Origin: Pseudomonadota bacterium
Lineage (GTDB): Bacteria; Pseudomonadota; Alphaproteobacteria; Rhodobacterales; Rhodobacteraceae
Length of the DNA stretch: 64,000 nt
Assembly (NCBI GenBank): GCA_020161655.1
Contig: JAIUPC010000017.1
Coordinates: 1 to 64,000, forward strand
Reading direction: 5' to 3'
Shown here: in pieces, positions 23,365 to 31,618 of the stretch
Position numbering within the stretch: the stretch's first letter is position 1
How the letters are laid out: every line of letters starts with the position of its first letter
Position numbers and translations under genes: made by a program
Notes under the pieces: model-generated
Told to the model about the DNA's origin: nothing
Database searches by the model: none
What the model saw: the letters and a program-made list of their open reading frames with translations, nothing else

Positions 23365-24339
23365 TCACATTGTCAGGATGGTCGATCCCGTCGTCGCCCG
23401 CGCTTCAAGCGCGCGGTGGGCGTCGGCAACCTTCTCAAGCGGGAAGCGCTGGTCGATGTTGATCCTGACCGCGCCCGAGGCAACCTTGGCGAAAAGCCGC
23501 GCCGCCATGTCCTGACAGACCGCCGGATCGGCGATATGGGCGAAAAGCGTCGGCCGCGTCAGCTTCAGCGATCCCTTCGCCGCAAGCTGAAGGATGTCGA
23601 AGGGCGGCACCGGCCCGGAAGCGCTGCCAAAGGAAATCATCATGCCGAAGGGCACGAGCGAATTCAGCGAGCCTTCGAACGTGTCCTTGCCGACCGAATC
23701 CATCACCACCTGCACTCCCTTGCCGCCGGTGATCTCCCTCACCTTCGGGGCAAAGTCGCCCTGCCGGTAGTTGATCGCATGGGTGGCGCCAAGGTCGAGC
23801 GCCATCCGGCACTTCTCATCCGTCCCGGCGGTGGCGATGAGGTTGATCCCCTCGGACCGCGCCCATTGGCAGGCGATCTGGCCGACACCGCCGGCGGCGG
23901 CATGGAAAAGCACCCAGTCGCCCTTGGCGATGGGCGTGGTGCGGTTGAAAAGGTAGTCGACCGTCATCCCCTTCAGCATCATCGCGGCCCCTTCCTCGAA
24001 GGAAATCGCATCGGGGAGTTTGCAGACCTGCGCCGCCTGCATCACCCGCGCTTGCGTATAGGCGCCGGGCGCGCTGGTGGCATAGGCGGCGCGGTCGCCG
24101 GGCTTCAGATGGGTGACGCTAGGCCCCACCGCCTCGACCACGCCCGCGGCTTCCATGCCAAGCGCCGCCGGCAGCGGCAGCTTGTAAAGCCCGGACCGCT
24201 GGTAGACGTCGATGAAGTTCAGCCCCGCCGCCTTCTGCGCGATGCGGATTTCGCCCGGCCCCGGCTCGCCCACGGCGCGGTCGACAAGCGTCATCACCTC
24301 CGGCCCGCCATTGGTTTCGATGATGATGGTGCGTGCCAT
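23365..24339 (-). CDS. qor: NADPH:quinone oxidoreductase (MDR superfamily)
   Basis: A 324-residue zinc-independent medium-chain dehydrogenase of the QOR group, which reduces quinones using NADPH in the cytoplasm. Family marks are GLNFIDVYQRSGLY near residue 40, GMEAAGVVEAVG, and the cofactor loop HAAAGGVGQIACQWA. The zinc-binding cysteines of alcohol dehydrogenases are absent, as expected for QOR. The start at 24339 is fixed by an AGGAGG six bases upstream. It is divergent from the GntR regulator at 24488 with 148 bp between them, so the regulator may affect it, though I see no operator on its side. Confidence 0.9.
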   Translation of the reverse strand: MARTIIIETNGGPEVMTLVDRAVGEPGPGEIRIAQKAAGLNFIDVYQRSGLYKLPLPAALGMEAAGVVEAVGPSVTHLKPGDRAAYATSAPGAYTQARVMQAAQVCKLPDAISFEEGAAMMLKGMTVDYLFNRTTPIAKGDWVLFHAAAGGVGQIACQWARSEGINLIATAGTDEKCRMALDLGATHAINYRQGDFAPKVREITGGKGVQVVMDSVGKDTFEGSLNSLVPFGMMISFGSASGPVPPFDILQLAAKGSLKLTRPTLFAHIADPAVCQDMAARLFAKVASGAVRINIDQRFPLEKVADAHRALEARATTGSTILTM

Positions 24340-24430
24340 GGCGGCCTCCTGCGTTGGGCTGTTCACGCCGATGGTAACACGCGAGGCAGCGGGGTCGAGA
24401 GCCTTGGGCGCTGCCCCTTGGTCAAGGTTC

Positions 24431-24458
24431 TTGACAGGGTGGCGGTCCAGGGTAAAGT
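24431..24458 (+). promoter_or_regulatory. Sigma-70-type promoter of the GntR/ADP-ribosylglycohydrolase operon
   Basis: TTGACA at 24431-24436 and TAAAGT at 24453-24458 with a 16-bp spacer. The -35 matches consensus fully and the -10 matches in four of six positions. It lies 30 to 57 bases before the regulator ATG at 24488, and no other candidate in the intergenic region is as good. Confidence 0.7.
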
Positions 24459-24465
24459 ACAGGTA

Positions 24466-24477
24466 GGAACAGGTTCC
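24466..24477. promoter_or_regulatory. Candidate GntR operator at the operon start
   Basis: GGAACAGGTTCC is a palindrome (GGAAC, two bases, GTTCC) lying seven bases after the -10 box, where the transcription start is expected. The adjacent gene encodes a GntR/UTRA regulator, and bound protein here would block transcription. Assignment to this regulator is by position and symmetry only. Confidence 0.5.
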
Positions 24478-24487
24478 GTGGGGTGCC

Positions 24488-25198
24488 ATGTCTTCCCGAA
24501 TCGCCATCGCAAAGTCCGAACTGGTCGCCCAGACGCTGGAGCGTGAGATCCGCGACGGGCGCATCGGCCACGGCGACCTTCTGGAAAGCGAGGTTGGGCT
24601 GATGCGGCGCTTTGCCGTCAGCCGCAACACCGTCCGCAAGGGGCTGGAACAGCTCTCCCGGCAGGGGCTGATCGCCACCCGGACCGGCATCGGCTCTTTC
24701 GTGACCTATGACGGCACCACCATCGACAGCAATCTCGGCTGGACCGTCGCCCTGTCGCATGGTGCGGGCGCGATGGAGACGCGGCTGCTGAGGCTCGATC
24801 GTGGCGGCTCTGCCCATGCCGATGAAAGGCTGGGCGGGGTGGGCGACTATCTCAGGCTCGACCGGCTCAGGTTCTGCACGGTGGCGGGGCAGGGCATCTC
24901 TCTGGAACGGAGCCGCCTGCCCTGGCGCGAGGGGTTCCAGGACCTCATCGGCAACGGCCTGACCGGCGGCTCGCTCAGCCGCAGCCTCGCCGGTCTGGGC
25001 CTTGCGACCGCCAAGGGGCAGGAAACGGCGAGCGTCCTTCCGGCGCTGTCGGAGGAAGACGCCGCGATCATGAGCCGCCCCGCCGGTGCGCCGATGCTGC
25101 GGCTGGAGCGGATCAACCGCTCTGCTGATGGCTCTGTGCTGGAACATGTCGACAGCATCCTCGACCCGTCGCGCTTCGGGCTGAGGATCGAATTCTGA
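24488..25198 (+). CDS. GntR-family regulator with UTRA effector domain
   Basis: A 236-residue HutC-subfamily regulator. The N-terminal winged helix (residues 5-72) contains LESEVGLMRRFAVSRNTVRKGLEQL, and the C-terminal UTRA domain ends with the family-like MLRLERINRSADGSVLEHVDSILD. UTRA domains bind small metabolites, often the substrate or an early intermediate of the controlled pathway. It is the first gene of an operon with a glycohydrolase, a kinase and an ABC importer; its TGA overlaps the next ATG as TGATG. The promoter and a palindrome just upstream suggest autoregulation. The effector is unknown. Confidence 0.88.
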   Translation: MSSRIAIAKSELVAQTLEREIRDGRIGHGDLLESEVGLMRRFAVSRNTVRKGLEQLSRQGLIATRTGIGSFVTYDGTTIDSNLGWTVALSHGAGAMETRLLRLDRGGSAHADERLGGVGDYLRLDRLRFCTVAGQGISLERSRLPWREGFQDLIGNGLTGGSLSRSLAGLGLATAKGQETASVLPALSEEDAAIMSRPAGAPMLRLERINRSADGSVLEHVDSILDPSRFGLRIEF

Positions 25199-26211
25199 TG
25201 GGCGCGGCTGCAACCAGAGAGCTTGACCGCGCGCTCGGCGCCCTGACCGGGGTTGCCCTTGGCGATGCGCTCGGGATGCCGTCCCAGACCCTGCCGCGCG
25301 ATGCCATCGTGGCGGCCTATGGCCGGATCACTGACCTCGTCAATCCTGTCGCCGATCACCCGGTCTCGCACGGGCTGAAGGCCGGCATGGTCACGGATGA
25401 TACCGAACAGACCCTGATCCTCGCCGACCTCCTGCTTCGCACCCCCGGCGCCTTCGATGACCGCGCCTGGGCCGATGCGCTTCTGGCGTGGGAGCGGGAC
25501 GTGCGGGCGCGGGGGCTGCGCGACCTTCTCGGGCCGTCCTCCAAGCGGGCGCTCGACGCCCTCCTGGCCGGGGTGCCGGCGACGGAAACCGGCCGCGCCG
25601 GGACCACCAATGGCGCTGCGATGCGGATCGCCCCGGTGGGCATCGCCACGCCGCCGGATGACCCCGCCACGCTGGTCGCCCGCGTCGCCGAAGCCTGCCG
25701 CGTGACCCACAACACCCGCGAGGCGATCTCCTCCGCCGCTGCCGTCGCGATGGTCGTCAGCCTTGGCGTCGCCGGGGCCGGGTTCGATGCCGCCATCGCC
25801 GGCGCGCTCGATGCAGCAAAGCTTGGCGCGACCCTTGGCGCGCCGGTCGGCGAAGCCGACATGGCCGGGCGCATCAGGGCGGCGCTCAAGGTCGCCGAAA
25901 CCGGCTCCGCCGACGACCTCGCCAGCCGCATCGGCACCTCCGTCGCCAGCCGCGAGTCGGTGCCGGCGGCCTTTGGCGTGGTGCTTCTGGCCGGGGGCGA
26001 TCCCTGGCGGGCGGGCCTCATCGCCGCGAATATCGGCGACGATACCGACACGATCGGCGCCATCGCCTGCGCCATGGCCGGCGCCTGCAGCGGCCTTTCG
26101 GCCTTCCCGGCCGAGAAGGTCGACCGGGTCGTCACGCTCAACCATCTGTCGCTCGGGCCGCTGGCCGAGGGCCTTCTGGCGCTGCGCGCGGCGCGGGAGG
26201 CAGCGCCATGA
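25198..26211 (+). CDS. ADP-ribosylglycohydrolase family hydrolase
   Basis: A 337-residue, all-helical DraG/ARH-family enzyme. The two metal-binding clusters are present: VTDDTEQ at residues 65-71 and GDDTDTIGA at 280-288. The opening GVALGDALGMP and TNGAAMRIAPVGI are also conserved. Family members hydrolyse N- or O-glycosidic bonds to ribose with two Mg ions. The protein starts with no signal peptide, so it is cytoplasmic. Its tight coupling to a PfkB kinase and an ABC importer argues for cleavage of an imported ribosylated compound rather than of ADP-ribosylated protein. The true substrate cannot be read from the sequence. Confidence 0.9.
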   Translation: MGAAATRELDRALGALTGVALGDALGMPSQTLPRDAIVAAYGRITDLVNPVADHPVSHGLKAGMVTDDTEQTLILADLLLRTPGAFDDRAWADALLAWERDVRARGLRDLLGPSSKRALDALLAGVPATETGRAGTTNGAAMRIAPVGIATPPDDPATLVARVAEACRVTHNTREAISSAAAVAMVVSLGVAGAGFDAAIAGALDAAKLGATLGAPVGEADMAGRIRAALKVAETGSADDLASRIGTSVASRESVPAAFGVVLLAGGDPWRAGLIAANIGDDTDTIGAIACAMAGACSGLSAFPAEKVDRVVTLNHLSLGPLAEGLLALRAAREAAP

Positions 26212-27149
26212 CCGGCCGCCTTGTCCAGCTTTCCGGCGTGATCGTCGATCACATCTACTGGGTCGAGGGTGTGCCCGCCCCCGGCGCCGAGGCCATCGTC
26301 AGCCGTGTCGCCCTTTGCGCGGGCGGTGGTTTCAACGCCATGGTCGCGGCGCGGCGCGCGGGACTGGCCGTGGCCTACGCCGGCACCTTGGGCACGGGCC
26401 CCTTCGCCGGCATCGCCGCCGAGGCGCTGGCAGCGGAAGGCATCGCGGTGCTGCGCCCGCGCCTTCAAGGCCAGGATCAGGGCTGCTGCACCTGCCTCAT
26501 CGACCGGGCGGGCGAGCGTACCTTCATCGCTTCCTCCGGCGCCGATGGCGTGGTCACGGACCGGGACCTTGCCGCCATCAGGCCCGAACCGGACGACTGG
26601 TTCCTCCTCTCCGGCTACGCGCTCGGCTACCGGAAAAGCCGCGAGGCGCTGACCCGCTGGCTTCAGGCGGCCCCGGAAGGCCTGCGTCTGGTCTTCGACC
26701 CCTCGCCACTGGTCGCGGAAATTCCGGAAGAAACCCGCGCCGCCGCCCTTCATGCCGCCACTTGGGTCAGCGCCAACCGCGCCGAAGCTGCCTTCCTGAC
26801 CGGCGCCGCCGATCCGGCCCAAGCTGCCGAAGCGCTGGCGAAAGGCCGCCCCGGCGGTGCCGTGGTGCGTGACGGGGCCAACGGCTGCTACCTCGCCCTG
26901 AAGGACGGCACGGCCACCCATATCCCCGGCCATCCCGTCGCCGTGAAGGACACCAACGGCGCCGGCGACGCCCATATCGGCGCCTTCATCGCCGCCCTCG
27001 CAAGGGGCGAACCACCCCTCAAGGCGGCGCGTTTCGCCAATATCGCCGCTGCCCTTTCCACAACCAAAGAAGGGCCGTCCACGGCCCCGGACCTCAACGA
27101 AGTCCTTGCCATCCTCGGGTCCGATCCCGGAGTGGCAGGGGCCGCATGA
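26208..27149 (+). CDS. PfkB-family sugar/nucleoside kinase
   Basis: A 313-residue ribokinase-like kinase. Signature 1 is GGGFNAMVAARRAG at residues 39-52. Signature 2 is DTNGAGDAHIGAF from residue 248, with catalytic Asp at residue 254 and the anion hole GAGD. It lacks the lid motifs that would separate ribokinase from fructokinase or nucleoside kinase by eye. The ATG overlaps the stop of the glycohydrolase by four bases, so the products should be made together. A plausible role is phosphorylation of the sugar released by the glycohydrolase. The 5' neighbours and the importer give no direct hint at the sugar. Confidence 0.9.
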   Translation: MTGRLVQLSGVIVDHIYWVEGVPAPGAEAIVSRVALCAGGGFNAMVAARRAGLAVAYAGTLGTGPFAGIAAEALAAEGIAVLRPRLQGQDQGCCTCLIDRAGERTFIASSGADGVVTDRDLAAIRPEPDDWFLLSGYALGYRKSREALTRWLQAAPEGLRLVFDPSPLVAEIPEETRAAALHAATWVSANRAEAAFLTGAADPAQAAEALAKGRPGGAVVRDGANGCYLALKDGTATHIPGHPVAVKDTNGAGDAHIGAFIAALARGEPPLKAARFANIAAALSTTKEGPSTAPDLNEVLAILGSDPGVAGAA

Positions 27150-27174
27150 CACATCCGACACCAAGGAGGACCCC

Positions 27175-28206
27175 ATGAAAAGTCTGCTTCTGACGACCGC
27201 ACTGGCCCTGACCGCCGGCGGCGCCTTTGCCGAAGAAATCCGCGTCCTGAACTGGCAGGGCTATGGCACCGACCTTGACTGGGCCGTCGCCGACTTCACC
27301 GAAAAGACCGGCAACACCGTGGTCCACGAATACTTCACCTCTGAACAAGAGATGCTGACCAAGCTGCGCACCAATCCGGGCGCCTATGACGTGGTCCTCA
27401 TCAACTCGGCCTATACCAAGCAGGCCAAGGACGAAGGCCTGATCGACGCCATCGACACCGCGAAGATCGCCAATTTCGCCGATCTCGACCCGGCGCTGAC
27501 CGGGAATGAGGATCTCAACCCCGGCGGCCAGCTTTCGGGCGTGCCGTGGACCTGGGGCCTGACCTCGATCGCCGTCAATACCGCCGACTTCGCCGAAATG
27601 CCGACCTCGCTGTCGGTGCTTTGGGACCCGGCCTGGAAAGGCCGCGTCTCGATCCGCGACGACGGGCTTGAGGCGGTGCAGTTCGCCGCCATGGCGACGG
27701 GCCAGAACATCAACGAGATCACCGACATGGCGGCGGTCGAGGCCAAGCTGAAAGAGCTTCTGCCGCAGATCACCACCTTCTGGAGTTCGGAGAACGACTG
27801 GAACCAGTTCATGTCGGCAGGCGATTTCGCGGTCGCCACCTATTGGTCCGGCTCGGCGGCGCGGTCGCTGTCGAAGGGGCTGCCCATCGCCTTCGTCGTG
27901 CCCGAAGAGGGCGCCATCGGCTGGCTCGACGGGCTGTCGATCCCCACAAGCTCCACCAAGAAGGACGCGGCGGCGGCTTTCATCGACTGGATGGTCGATC
28001 CGGAGTTCTACGTGAAATGGGACGCCGAGGGCGCGCCGGTCTCGTCGAACACCAAGGCCCTCGCCGCCCTGCCTGAGACGAGCTTCAACCGGCAACTGGT
28101 GGCAGACCCGGCCACCGTGGCGCGGGTGCAGTTCATGCGGCCCGTGTCGGACGCCGACCGGGAAACCTACCTGAAGCTCTGGCAGGACATGAAGGCCGCG
28201 CAGTAA
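27175..28206 (+). CDS. PotF/PotD-like periplasmic substrate-binding protein
   Basis: A 343-residue binding protein of the spermidine/putrescine class. The signal peptide ends at AFA before residue 21. The mature protein begins EIRVLNWQGYGTDLDWAV, where PotD-type proteins place aromatic ligand residues, and later has FWSSENDWNQFMSAGDFAVATYW. An AAGGAGG site five bases before the ATG fixes the start. Polyamine binding is not certain: related proteins bind other small organic ligands, and the operon encodes no polyamine enzyme. The operon context suggests a ribosylated or nucleoside-like ligand. Confidence 0.88.
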   Translation: MKSLLLTTALALTAGGAFAEEIRVLNWQGYGTDLDWAVADFTEKTGNTVVHEYFTSEQEMLTKLRTNPGAYDVVLINSAYTKQAKDEGLIDAIDTAKIANFADLDPALTGNEDLNPGGQLSGVPWTWGLTSIAVNTADFAEMPTSLSVLWDPAWKGRVSIRDDGLEAVQFAAMATGQNINEITDMAAVEAKLKELLPQITTFWSSENDWNQFMSAGDFAVATYWSGSAARSLSKGLPIAFVVPEEGAIGWLDGLSIPTSSTKKDAAAAFIDWMVDPEFYVKWDAEGAPVSSNTKALAALPETSFNRQLVADPATVARVQFMRPVSDADRETYLKLWQDMKAAQ

Positions 28207-28239
28207 CGCGCGGACAGGGGAAAAGGGGAGGGGCGAGAG

Positions 28240-29103
28240 ATGGCTGGAACCATTGCCGGGCAGGATCGCCGCAAGGCATTCATGCTTCTCTCCCCCGCCT
28301 ATCTCTGGCTGACGGTGGCGGTGTTCCTGCCGCTGTCGGCCATGGCCTATTTCAGCTTCCTGTCGGAGGTGCCATTCGACGGGCGCGACTGGCACTTCAC
28401 CATCGCCAACTACCGCGCCTTCTTCGAGACCGGCACCTATGCCACGCTGCTCTGGAAATCGCTGAAGCTTGGCCTTGTGGTCACGGCGGTGTCGGTCGTG
28501 ATCGGCTTTCCCTGCGCCTATGTGCTGGCCAAGGTGGTGAAGGGCAGGGCGCGCGAGGCGCTCTTTCTCTTGGTCATCCTGCCCTTCTGGTCGAACTCCC
28601 TCGTCCGCATCTTCTCCTGGGCCATCGTGCTGCGCGGCAATGGCGTCCTTGACCGGGCGGTGAATGCGGTCCTGCCCTGGGACGTGAAGCTGAACCTCAT
28701 GTTCAGCCCGACCGCCATCGTCATCGGCCTTGTCCATTCCTATTTGCCTTACGTGATCCTGACCTCCTACCTCGCGCTGCAAGCCATCGACGACAGCCTG
28801 ATCGAGGCGGCGCGGTCCTTGGGCGCCAAGCGCCGCACGATCCTCTGGCGGCTGATCCTGCCTCTGGCCGCGCCGGGCATCATCGCCGGCGCGGTCCTCA
28901 TCTTCGTCCCCGTCGTCGGATCGTTCATGGAGCCGCGGCTCTTGGGCGGCAGGCTCGGCACGTACTACGGCACGGTGATCGAGGATCAGTTCGTCGCTGT
29001 CTTCAACTGGCCGCTCGGTGCTGCGCTTTCCTTCATCCTCCTCGCCGTCGTGCTGGCGATCCTCGCCGCTGCCAGCCCCGTCCTGAAAAGGGCCGCGACA
29101 TGA
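28240..29103 (+). CDS. PotB-like ABC permease
   Basis: A 287-residue inner-membrane permease with six predicted spans. The cytoplasmic EAA loop is EAARSLGAKRRTILWRLILPLAAPG, the contact for the ATPase. It belongs to the PotB/PotH side of spermidine/putrescine-type importers. The gene is 33 bp after the binding protein with a GGGGAGG site, and its last four bases overlap the next permease (ATGA). It is expected to form a heterodimer with the following gene. Confidence 0.9.
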   Translation: MAGTIAGQDRRKAFMLLSPAYLWLTVAVFLPLSAMAYFSFLSEVPFDGRDWHFTIANYRAFFETGTYATLLWKSLKLGLVVTAVSVVIGFPCAYVLAKVVKGRAREALFLLVILPFWSNSLVRIFSWAIVLRGNGVLDRAVNAVLPWDVKLNLMFSPTAIVIGLVHSYLPYVILTSYLALQAIDDSLIEAARSLGAKRRTILWRLILPLAAPGIIAGAVLIFVPVVGSFMEPRLLGGRLGTYYGTVIEDQFVAVFNWPLGAALSFILLAVVLAILAAASPVLKRAAT

Positions 29104-29885
29104 GCAACCGTTTCCTCGCCCATCTCGGTCGCGCCTATCTGGGGCTGATCCTCTTCTTCCTCTATGCGCCGATCCTCGTCATGGCGGCGATGTCGCTCAA
29201 CGCATCCGAATTCTACCAGCTCCCCTTCAAGTTTTCCGGCGAATGGTATGACCGGCTGTGGAACAACCGCGAAATCCTTGCCGCCGCCGGGCGTTCCATC
29301 TGGATCGCCGTCGTGGTGACGGTGCTTGCCACCACGCTTGGCACCGCCGCCTCCATCGCGCTCTACCGCCACGATTTCCCCGGCAAGCGCATCCTGCAGG
29401 CGCTCCTTTTCCCGCCCATCGCGATCCCGTGGCTCATCACCGGCACGGCGATGCTGATCTTCTTCTTCGGCATCGGCATCGGGCGCGGTACACCCGCCGT
29501 CATCATCGGCCATGTCGCCCTTGCGCTGCCCTACGTGATCGTCGTCGTCTCGGCCCGGCTCGCAAGCTTCGACCGCGTGCTGGAAGAGGCGGCGCGCTCG
29601 CTCGGCGCTTCCGCCTGGCAGGTGACGCGGGCGGTGACGGTGCCCTGGATCCTGCCCGGCATCATCGCCGGCGGGCTTTTCGCCTTCGCCGTCAGCTTCG
29701 ACCAGTTCGTCGTCTCCTACTTCCTGTCGGAACCGGGCGACACCACCTTGCCGGTCCTCATCTACACCTCGATCCGCAAGGGCTTCACGCCCGAGATCAA
29801 CGCGATCTCGACCATCATCATCGCCGTGTCGATGGGCCTCATGCTTCTGGCCGCGCGGTTCACGAAATTCGGAGGGGATCGCTGA
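29100..29885 (+). CDS. PotC-like ABC permease
   Basis: A 261-residue inner-membrane permease, shorter than its partner, as PotC usually is. The EAA loop is EEAARSLGASAWQVTRAVTV, and the periplasmic side carries the SLNASEFYQLPFKF segment typical of the family. It starts inside the stop of the PotB-like gene and its own TGA overlaps the ATPase start as TGATG. The three genes are therefore translationally linked and act as one transporter. Confidence 0.9.
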   Translation: MSNRFLAHLGRAYLGLILFFLYAPILVMAAMSLNASEFYQLPFKFSGEWYDRLWNNREILAAAGRSIWIAVVVTVLATTLGTAASIALYRHDFPGKRILQALLFPPIAIPWLITGTAMLIFFFGIGIGRGTPAVIIGHVALALPYVIVVVSARLASFDRVLEEAARSLGASAWQVTRAVTVPWILPGIIAGGLFAFAVSFDQFVVSYFLSEPGDTTLPVLIYTSIRKGFTPEINAISTIIIAVSMGLMLLAARFTKFGGDR

Positions 29886-30919
29886 TGGCCGAAGTCAGGG
29901 TCGAACGGCTGGTCAAGGCTTACGGCGCGGCGCGGGCACTGGACGAGGTGACGCTCGACTTTCCGGATGGCGGCTTCTTTGGCCTTCTCGGGCCATCGGG
30001 CAGCGGCAAGACCACGCTTCTGCGCGCCATCGCGGGCTTCGTCCTGCCCGACACCGGCCGCGTATTCATCGGCGGCGAACCGGTTGAGAACGTGCCGGTG
30101 GAGCACCGCGAGATCGGCATGGTGTTCCAGAATTACGCGCTTTTCCCCAACATGACGGTGGAGGAGAACGTGGCCTTCGGCCTTCATGTGCGGAAGACCG
30201 GTGCGGCCGAAACTGCAAAGCGCGTGAAGGAGGCGCTGGACCTTGTGCAACTCGGCCATCTCGCCGCCCGCAAGACCCACCAGCTTTCCGGCGGCCAGCG
30301 CCAGCGCGTCGCCATGGCCCGCGCCATCGTCACCCGCCCGCGCGTACTTCTGCTCGACGAACCCTTGTCGGCGCTCGACAAGGCGCTCAGGGTCGACATG
30401 CAGATCGAGCTGAAGCGCATCCAGCGTGAGGTCGGCATCACCACGATCTTCGTCACCCATGACCAGGAAGAGGCGCTGACCCTCTCCGACCGCATCGGCA
30501 TCCTGAAGGACGGAAAGCTGGTCCGCCACGGCCCCCCGCGCGAGGTCTACGATGACCCCCGCAACCCCTTCACCGCCCAGTTCCTCGGCGATGCGAACCT
30601 GATCGAGGGCAAGCCGGAACCCGAGGGCCTGCGCCTTTCCGACGGCACGCTCCTGCCCGGCCTCAAGGGGCCGACCATCGCCGTCCGGCCCGAAAGCCTG
30701 AAGCTCGACACCACGGAACCCGCGGCACCCTTCCGCCTCCGCGCCCGCCTCCAGCAGCGCATCTTCGGCGGCGCGATGGGCACCTGCATCATCGACTGGC
30801 AGGGCCGGCCCCTGAAGGCCGTGGGCCGCGATGCCGATTTCCGCGGCCTGCCCGATGCGGGCGATGTCTGGCTTTCGTGGCCTCGGGAAAGCACCATCGA
30901 ATTCGCCGCAAAGGCCTGA
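29885..30919 (+). CDS. PotA-like ABC transporter ATP-binding protein
   Basis: A 344-residue ATPase with Walker A GPSGSGKTT, signature LSGGQRQRVAMARA, Walker B LLLDEPLSALD and the H-loop VTHDQEEA. All catalytic elements are intact. A C-terminal TOBE-type regulatory domain runs from about residue 240. It energises the preceding two permeases. It is the last gene of the operon; the next gene is convergent and ends nine bases away, and I see no strong terminator between them. Confidence 0.93.
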   Translation: MAEVRVERLVKAYGAARALDEVTLDFPDGGFFGLLGPSGSGKTTLLRAIAGFVLPDTGRVFIGGEPVENVPVEHREIGMVFQNYALFPNMTVEENVAFGLHVRKTGAAETAKRVKEALDLVQLGHLAARKTHQLSGGQRQRVAMARAIVTRPRVLLLDEPLSALDKALRVDMQIELKRIQREVGITTIFVTHDQEEALTLSDRIGILKDGKLVRHGPPREVYDDPRNPFTAQFLGDANLIEGKPEPEGLRLSDGTLLPGLKGPTIAVRPESLKLDTTEPAAPFRLRARLQQRIFGGAMGTCIIDWQGRPLKAVGRDADFRGLPDAGDVWLSWPRESTIEFAAKA

Positions 30920-30928
30920 CCGCCGGAC

Positions 30929-31618
30929 TCAGGCGTTCCGGCGCATCCTCTCGAAACTCATCGAGATATGGGCGCGCTGGATCAGGGCTGCGGCATGCAG
31001 ATCGCCGATCTCGAGCGCGCGCAGGATGTCATGAACCTCGCGGTCAAAGATGTCGACCTCGTCGGCAATGTCGATCCGGGACGCAAAGACCGATTTCAGC
31101 CAGATGCGGGTGGTCTGGAAGTAGAGCCGTTCGCAGATCTCCTTCAGTGGCTCATTGGCGGTGAGCCTGAGAAGCGCGAGGAAGAAATCCATGTTGAGTT
31201 CGGCGAACCGGCGCGGATCGGGCGCGTCGATCAGCGCCTTCGACCGGGCCGACAGCGTGCGGAAATCCTGCCAGAGCGCCTCATCCGGCGCGACCGCGCT
31301 GAGCTTGCCGGTCAGTTCCGCAAGCTCCAGCCGAAGCTGATAGGTCTGCGTCAGCTCGCCGATCTCGACATCGGTGACAAAGGTTCCGACGCCGTGGACC
31401 GATTGTAGCAGGCCCTCGCCCTCCAGCCGCCCCAGCACCCGGCGCAAGGGCGTGCGGCTGACCCCGTACTCCGCCGCCAGCGCCTCTTCCGACAGGCGCG
31501 TGCCGGGGGCGTAGTCGAGAAGGCAGATGCGGTTGCGGATCGCGGCATGCATCCGTTCGAAGCGGTCGCGGGCGCTGGGCGCGGTCTCCGGCGCTTCGAA
31601 GTTCATGGAGGCGCTCAT
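30929..31618 (-). CDS. GntR-family regulator, FCD (FadR-like) type
   Basis: A 229-residue regulator with an N-terminal winged helix (RLSEEALAAEYGVSRTPLRR, about residues 41-60) and a C-terminal all-helical FCD domain. The FCD metal site looks altered: the usual DFH-type His appears as NMDFF. It is the last gene of a minus-strand operon with a DMT transporter, a deacylase and ectoine hydrolase, overlapping the DMT gene by four bases. It is therefore the likely regulator of the ectoine locus, in place of the MocR-type EnuR known from other Rhodobacterales. Candidate binding sites lie in the divergent promoter region at 34905-35021. Confidence 0.85.
   Translation of the reverse strand: MSASMNFEAPETAPSARDRFERMHAAIRNRICLLDYAPGTRLSEEALAAEYGVSRTPLRRVLGRLEGEGLLQSVHGVGTFVTDVEIGELTQTYQLRLELAELTGKLSAVAPDEALWQDFRTLSARSKALIDAPDPRRFAELNMDFFLALLRLTANEPLKEICERLYFQTTRIWLKSVFASRIDIADEVDIFDREVHDILRALEIGDLHAAALIQRAHISMSFERMRRNA

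Follow-up and report, generated by a model that had tools for sequence, protein, structure and literature searches.

A conserved operon joining an ADP-ribosylglycohydrolase-family enzyme and a PfkB kinase to an ABC importer in Rhodobacteraceae, a candidate system for riboside uptake and catabolism

The trio of a GntR-type regulator, an ADP-ribosylglycohydrolase-family (ARH) enzyme, and a PfkB-family kinase is already named in E. coli, as yegW, yegU, and yegV, and YegW (GgaR) is described as exerting single-operon control, of yegTUV, in a paper that assigns the operon no function (PMC10819704). A related set of genes lies in the stretch of Rhodobacteraceae DNA considered here (assembly GCA_020161655.1, contig JAIUPC010000017.1, positions 1 to 64,000; hereafter the window, of 64,000 nucleotides), where seven densely packed plus-strand genes (24488-30919) encode a GntR/UTRA regulator, an ARH resembling YegU (35% identity), a PfkB kinase resembling YegV (28%), and a four-gene ATP-binding cassette (ABC) importer. 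In contrast, the carrier of yegTUV is a nucleoside:H+ symporter, and YegU has Glu at ARH position 30, where the window ARH has Gln30. The window ARH also falls outside the YegU branch of the ARH tree, and the window regulator aligns to YegW over residues 14-145 only, at 24%. The first-pass annotation of this DNA knew of no characterized pathway with this set of genes, to which it should be added that the trio had been named in E. coli, albeit with no pathway assigned. Within the Creative Commons-licensed text of PubMed Central (subscription papers being outside this scope), our searches listed no paper in which an ARH-PfkB cassette is given a riboside as its substrate.

DraG, ARH1, and ARH3, of the same family as the enzyme, share its fold and metal-site motifs. 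ARH1 and ARH3 are reported to hydrolyze α-nicotinamide adenine dinucleotide (α-NAD+) to nicotinamide and ADP-ribose, but not β-NAD+ (PMC9738213); cleavage of a bond between ribose and nicotinamide, in the α anomer, is therefore within the family's reach. The window ARH differs from these enzymes in having Gln for the family's Glu, in its operon context, and in scoring far under the equivalog cut-offs. Nucleoside hydrolases of the inosine-uridine type (RihA/B/C, URH1) would be expected to catalyze the same type of reaction, although they belong to another family, PF01156, of which the window genome has one ordinary gene, elsewhere; URH1 is described as serving nicotinamide salvage (PMC11241417). 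As for the importer, PotABCD comprises a binding protein, two permeases, and an ATPase from the same families, from which the window importer is set apart by a ligand site that appears partly changed, by scores under the curated cut-offs, and by its tie to enzyme genes.

Each of the seven operon proteins carries its expected Pfam domain above cut-off. The regulator, a likely repressor (24488-25198; Pfam GntR 48.9 bits, UTRA 37.4 bits), is followed by the ARH, a proposed riboside hydrolase (25198-26211; PF03747 ADP_ribosyl_GH, 210 bits) and the only PF03747 gene product of the window genome, and by the PfkB kinase, a proposed ribose kinase (26208-27149; PF00294, 138 bits) whose nearest solved structures are ribokinases; both enzymes lie below the NCBIfam cut-off for every equivalog listed. 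The regulator/ARH junction is TGATG and the ARH/PfkB overlap ATGA, and these overlaps and all seven genes are present as the first-pass annotation had stated. The importer genes encode a PotD-like periplasmic binding protein (27175-28206; SBP_bac_8, 100 bits), the PotB-like permease TM1 (28240-29103; BPD_transp_1; PotB 197 bits against a cut-off of 348), the PotC-like permease TM2 (29100-29885; BPD_transp_1; PotC 215 bits against 326), and a PotA-like ATPase (29885-30919; ABC_tran and TOBE_2; PotA 340 bits against 482).

These parts are ordinary and their combination is conserved, the operon traveling as a unit. In an even order-level draw of 292 genomes, an ARH was found at a threshold of E 1e-20 in 12, the window's among them, and of the 11 others eight show the complete seven-gene order; the remaining three are a locus without the regulator, an ARH standing alone, and a genome whose only ARH is a distant one. 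In a named genome collection, where the best 80 of 447 stretches encoding a relative were taken as ARH loci, all seven genes stand in the same order in 52 of the 80; the other 28 comprise 8 with six genes and no recognized regulator, 4 cut by a contig end, and 16 that are different. The two sets overlap (under our labels, G200 is L046, G237 is L054, and others likewise). The holders are mostly Rhodobacterales, with further cases in Aurantimonas, Jiella, Fulvimarina, Mesorhizobium, Rhizobium, Geminicoccaceae, Halomonas, and Burkholderia. A comparison of gene neighborhoods had been proposed as a check on the earlier reading of the operon, and it finds the genes conserved together elsewhere.

More distant relatives keep the enzymes and exchange the importer. 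An even phylum-level draw of 398 genomes, searched with a Pantoea ARH at E 1e-25, gave an ARH in 26, and regulator, ARH, and kinase occur together in all 25 loci besides the window (the ARH match in one, G759, contains a stop), accompanied by a nucleoside:H+ symporter in 10, an ABC importer in 9, and an NCS1 carrier in 6. The NCS1 (PF02133) type is found in Cryobacterium, Kribbella, Propionibacteriaceae, Paraburkholderia, Plesiomonas, Photobacterium, and Lactiplantibacillus, some of these loci having no recognized regulator, while the symporter type is that of E. coli, Salmonella, Pantoea, and Vibrio. A Bmp/PnrA-like nucleoside ABC importer stands beside the ARH in L100; L148 and L156 are Bmp-like by 26% similarity to the L100 protein, and PfkB was not recognized there. 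That unrelated nucleobase or nucleoside carriers take the place of the ABC importer argues more strongly than anything else here for a nucleoside-like substrate common to these systems. Because regulator, ARH, and kinase are kept while the importer is swapped, a scheme in which a riboside would be imported and cleaved and its ribose phosphorylated is well supported, in line with the first-pass proposal of import, splitting, and trapping of the sugar as a phosphate. In Enterococcus and Listeria (L113, L174), a more distant ARH follows genes for a β-glucoside phosphotransferase system transporter and a PRD regulator, and the scheme therefore does not extend to all ARHs of the wider family. One Geminicoccaceae locus has a cytochrome P450 gene between the second permease and the ATPase (L033:14662-15909), which, as a single case, was set aside as a pathway clue.

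We read the locus, with a probability of about 0.5, as an operon under a repressor that serves to take up and break down a riboside, in all likelihood a pyridine N-riboside (nicotinate or nicotinamide riboside). The reactions, substrate, and effector that we infer would run as follows. The ABC importer would take up the riboside, the ARH-family enzyme would hydrolyze the ribose-pyridine bond, and the PfkB kinase would phosphorylate the freed ribose. The nicotinate or nicotinamide released would pass to NAD via the Preiss-Handler route in the window organism and into nicotinate degradation in some relatives, and the GntR/UTRA protein would repress at an ACAGGT repeat until it is bound by the substrate or a product.

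The choice of a pyridine follows the company that the cassette keeps in several lineages. A search of the fetched stretches with nicA, B, D, E, F, and X at E 1e-30 found nicotinate-degradation genes in five of the 80 loci (L046, L054, L083, L088, and L089; Rhodobacterales and Aurantimonadaceae). The L046 NicX has one solved-structure match at E≤1e-10, to 2,5-dihydroxypyridine 5,6-dioxygenase (7cn3, E 1e-91), and NicF matches isochorismatase-family structures including 3ot4/3uao, of which we take 3uao to be maleamate amidase; no NCBIfam model names the four nicotinate-type proteins searched. In Pantoea dispersa (L172), a cassette encoding a nucleoside permease, an ARH, and a PfkB kinase, accompanied by a GntR gene, is directly adjoined by genes for an MFS carrier, an isochorismatase-family protein, an Asp/Glu racemase, an α/β hydrolase, and an FAD monooxygenase, and the island also holds an annotated 2,5-dihydroxypyridine 5,6-dioxygenase gene and MarR, 2Fe-2S, and molybdopterin genes. 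These neighbors are a whole nicotinate island beside a yegTUV-type cassette. The At-9b plasmid encodes a monooxygenase that matches 6-hydroxynicotinate 3-monooxygenase (5eow, 6e-144), and 15 Pantoea plasmids carry the ARH, which lies ~5 kb from the 6-hydroxynicotinate monooxygenase gene in 9/9 of those having the latter; since 8 of these 9 are from P. dispersa, they represent one or two events. One Lactiplantibacillus plasmid (L117) carries, in this order, genes for an NrtR-type regulator, NAPRT, a nicotinamidase-type hydrolase, ARH, NCS1, and PfkB. The cases linked to vitamin B3 (hereafter B3) fall, on the ARH tree, in three places, Aurantimonadaceae, Rhodobacterales, and Pantoea, plus Lactiplantibacillus. 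Of the 292 genomes in the order-level draw, 9 have NicX (E 1e-60), 12 have the ARH, and 2 have both (hypergeometric P 0.048); they are neighbors in both genomes sharing them, and two such adjacencies within 10 kb have odds of ~1.6e-6 if positions are assumed independent. Two phylum-draw loci alone were followed past the first 20 kb stretch: G986 (1/25) has nicotinate-type genes ~8-15 kb off and no NicX match, and G1005 has weak dehydrogenase-like matches only. The window genome itself has an NAPRT gene with an adjacent PF00857 gene. In Aurantimonas, Fulvimarina, and G986, the ARH cassette and the nicotinate genes are separated by a gene for a symporter-like membrane protein of ~500 residues (~2.5 kb before the ARH in L083, L088, and L089; also L221:592-2121), with N-termini similar by eye.

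Several observations weigh against a pyridine riboside, beginning with the enzyme. The PF03747 domain and the metal-site motifs of DraG/ARH ADP-ribosyl hydrolases are present, with TDD (66-68), D282, D284, and T285 kept in 94 of 94 ARHs, and the AlphaFold2 model (pLDDT, the predicted local confidence score, 97.2) is nearest in fold to MJ1187 (1t5j), then to ARH3 and DraG, its structural matches including ARH3 E41A with α-NAD+. Position 30, however, is Gln in 66/66 ungapped ARHs of the ABC clade and in 15/15 of the actinobacterial-type clade (which takes in Paraburkholderia L108 and L100); it is Glu in DraG, MJ1187, and 2cwc and in all 12 ARHs of the YegU, Lactiplantibacillus, Bmp, and PTS types. 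The family's catalytic Glu is presumably that corresponding to E41 of ARH3, to which Gln30 is equivalent. Position 70 is Glu in 67/67 ABC-clade ARHs and in 14/15 of the actinobacterial type (Asp in one) and is not acidic in those 12; the idea that Glu70 stands in for the lost Glu30 is not supported, as DraG and MJ1187 carry Glu at both positions. No general acid would be required if the leaving group were a pyridinium, but the Pantoea ARH beside nicotinate genes keeps its Glu, so this argument proves nothing. Characterized ARHs, moreover, prefer α anomers and, as far as is known, require the ADP part of the substrate.

The neighborhoods, too, give reason for caution. B3 genes are rare beside the cassette (5/80 and, loosely, 1/25 loci), and two other Lactiplantibacillus loci (L111 and L173) have no NAD genes there. 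NicX is 84-100% identical across the five alphaproteobacterial loci, so that one transferred block may explain both alphaproteobacterial places on the tree, and because the B3 link was first noticed in these very loci, the chance estimates given above are after the fact. In the window genome, NicX gave no match at E 1e-60, and a search for PnuC found none. The commonest cassette accessory seen, in two importer types, is an isochorismatase-like gene, which lies beside the ATPase gene on the same strand in ten alphaproteobacterial/Halomonas loci (L042, L047, L055, L056, L058, L062, L064, L078, L084, L086). In L059 and L072 it stands farther along or in a rearranged setting, and six actinobacterial loci (L094, L096, L097, L098, L101, L102) have it between NCS1 and ARH. 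Its products keep the catalytic Asp, Lys, and Cys and lack the nicotinamidase metal ligands, as judged by what we take to be the nicotinamidase metal motif. Nicotinamidase was rejected as a general partner, since that motif is missing from the isochorismatase-like proteins in both Proteobacteria and Actinobacteria and is present only in L117. This accessory gene hints at an aglycone bearing an amide or ureide, and that hint is the best reason to doubt a plain nicotinate riboside.

The ligand site of the importer gives a divided answer. The first-pass annotation called the importer a complete PotFBCA-like set; complete it is, with four genes, but the binding protein scores 154 bits against PotD (cut-off 582) and 79 bits against PotF in NCBIfam, which makes the importer PotABCD-like rather than PotF-like. 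All four proteins are nearest PotABCD yet under its curated cut-offs. The binding protein (model pLDDT 91.3) is nearest, by sequence and by fold, to PotD with spermidine. A hand mapping onto what we take to be the polyamine contacts of PotD finds 7 of 12 mapped positions kept, 5 changed, and 1 further unmapped: W27, Y30, D163, E166, W224, W250, and D252 correspond to PotD W34, Y37, D168, E171, W229, W255, and D257, while the changes are T35 to Q28, E36 to G29, S83 to N77, Y85 to A79, and Y293 to A287. The apparent retention of several polyamine contacts likewise counts against a pyridine riboside; a cationic ligand of non-polyamine shape, such as a pyridinium riboside, would fit this site, and a polyamine may do so as well.

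It is possible, at a tentative estimate, that the same scheme serves another riboside, either a modified purine or pyrimidine nucleoside or an amide or ureide riboside opened by the isochorismatase-like hydrolase, the B3 neighbors then being incidental. Carriers of the NCS1, nucleoside-symporter, and Bmp types suggest nucleosides as a class, and the isochorismatase-like gene, non-nicotinamidase by motif, is found beside the cassette in 10 + 6 loci; yet among the identified recurring neighbors (clusters in at least 4 loci) there is no purine or pyrimidine catabolic family, whereas nicotinate genes were found. It is improbable that the importer simply carries polyamines and that the ARH-PfkB pair merely shares its transcript. 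PotD with spermidine as nearest solved structure and the seven contacts kept on our presumed list speak for a polyamine, but 52 of 80 loci keep importer and enzymes side by side, other lineages combine the enzymes with carriers not of the polyamine kind, and the changed contacts and sub-threshold Pot scores described above also tell against it.

Stripping of ADP-ribose from protein, or action on ADP-ribose derivatives in the manner of DraG or ARH3, would account for the family, fold, and metal site that the window ARH shares with ADP-ribosyl hydrolases. We consider it highly unlikely, given NCBIfam scores of 77.5 bits for DraG (cut-off 337) and 83.7 bits for Tri1 (cut-off 490), the replacement of the DraG Glu by Gln throughout both clades, and the fixed partnership of the ARH with a sugar kinase and an importer. 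Very improbable indeed is a role linked to ADP-glucose and glycogen, such as has been put forward for YegW (GgaR) of E. coli: in that report GgaR came off the yegT operator in vitro when ADP-glucose was added, and deletion of ggaR raised glycogen, but ADP-glucose, glucose, and ADP were the only effectors tried in the part of it considered here (PMC10819704). The match of the window regulator to YegW, moreover, is the partial one noted at the outset, and no glycogen family was recognized among the recurring neighbors.

The upstream region holds a promoter-like site and a likely operator. A promoter-like site for the whole operon, TTGACA-16-TAAAGT (24431-24458, plus strand; a 10/12 sigma-70-like match), is the one such site in a scan of 24350-31050, where shuffles average 0.5. 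The importer had been credited with a promoter of its own, an idea that we reject, as the scan gave no promoter-like site ahead of it; 25 bases separate the end of the kinase gene from the start of the first importer gene. Directly behind the promoter-like site stands the direct repeat ACAGGT-N4-ACAGGT, ACAGGTAGGAACAGGT (24459-24474, plus strand), a likely operator by its conservation upstream of the regulator: with either orientation allowed, at least 11 of 12 letters are matched there in 47/61 sequences (the window counted), against 10 of 1220 random stretches drawn from the same sequences (0.8%), and TTGAC lies 28-30 bases ahead in 26 of the 47 with a good operator. The palindrome GGAACAGGTTCC (24466-24477) of the first-pass annotation does exist in the window, but it is not kept in most relatives compared; it was rejected as operator and is better read as a direct repeat. 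One other exact copy of the repeat occurs in the window genome, within a coding frame, and was rejected as a second operator. With that copy in a coding frame, the GntR/UTRA protein looks like a single-target regulator, as reported for YegW.

Upstream, the operon is flanked by a quinone-oxidoreductase-like gene (23368-24339, minus strand). A GntR/FCD regulator gene (30932-31618, minus strand) lies tail to tail with it, followed by EamA and acetylornithine-deacetylase (ArgE)-like genes, also on the minus strand and probably a separate unit; three window genes 3' of the operon are kept there only in the nearest relative, L026. A glycosidase-like protein of 800-900 residues, with no Pfam family and a weak rhamnoside-type domain, is encoded convergent to the operon in 7 loci (e.g., L042:18452-20956, minus strand).

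The cassette was found in Alpha-, Beta-, and Gammaproteobacteria, Actinobacteria, and lactobacilli, and the reading given here offers a testable function for it, including for yegT, yegU, and yegV of E. coli. More speculatively, this ARH branch and the YegU branch may be free-living hydrolases of pyridine nucleosides, perhaps acting on the α anomer, which ordinary nucleoside hydrolases do not touch; the cassette would then be a widespread modular system for B3 ribosides, with a single pair of enzymes supplied by unrelated importers, and any part of YegW in glycogen control would be indirect. If a pyridine riboside is indeed the substrate, a protein family known for reversing ADP-ribosylation would gain a small-molecule role, and the cassette would provide a route for vitamin B3 ribosides into bacterial carbon and NAD metabolism.

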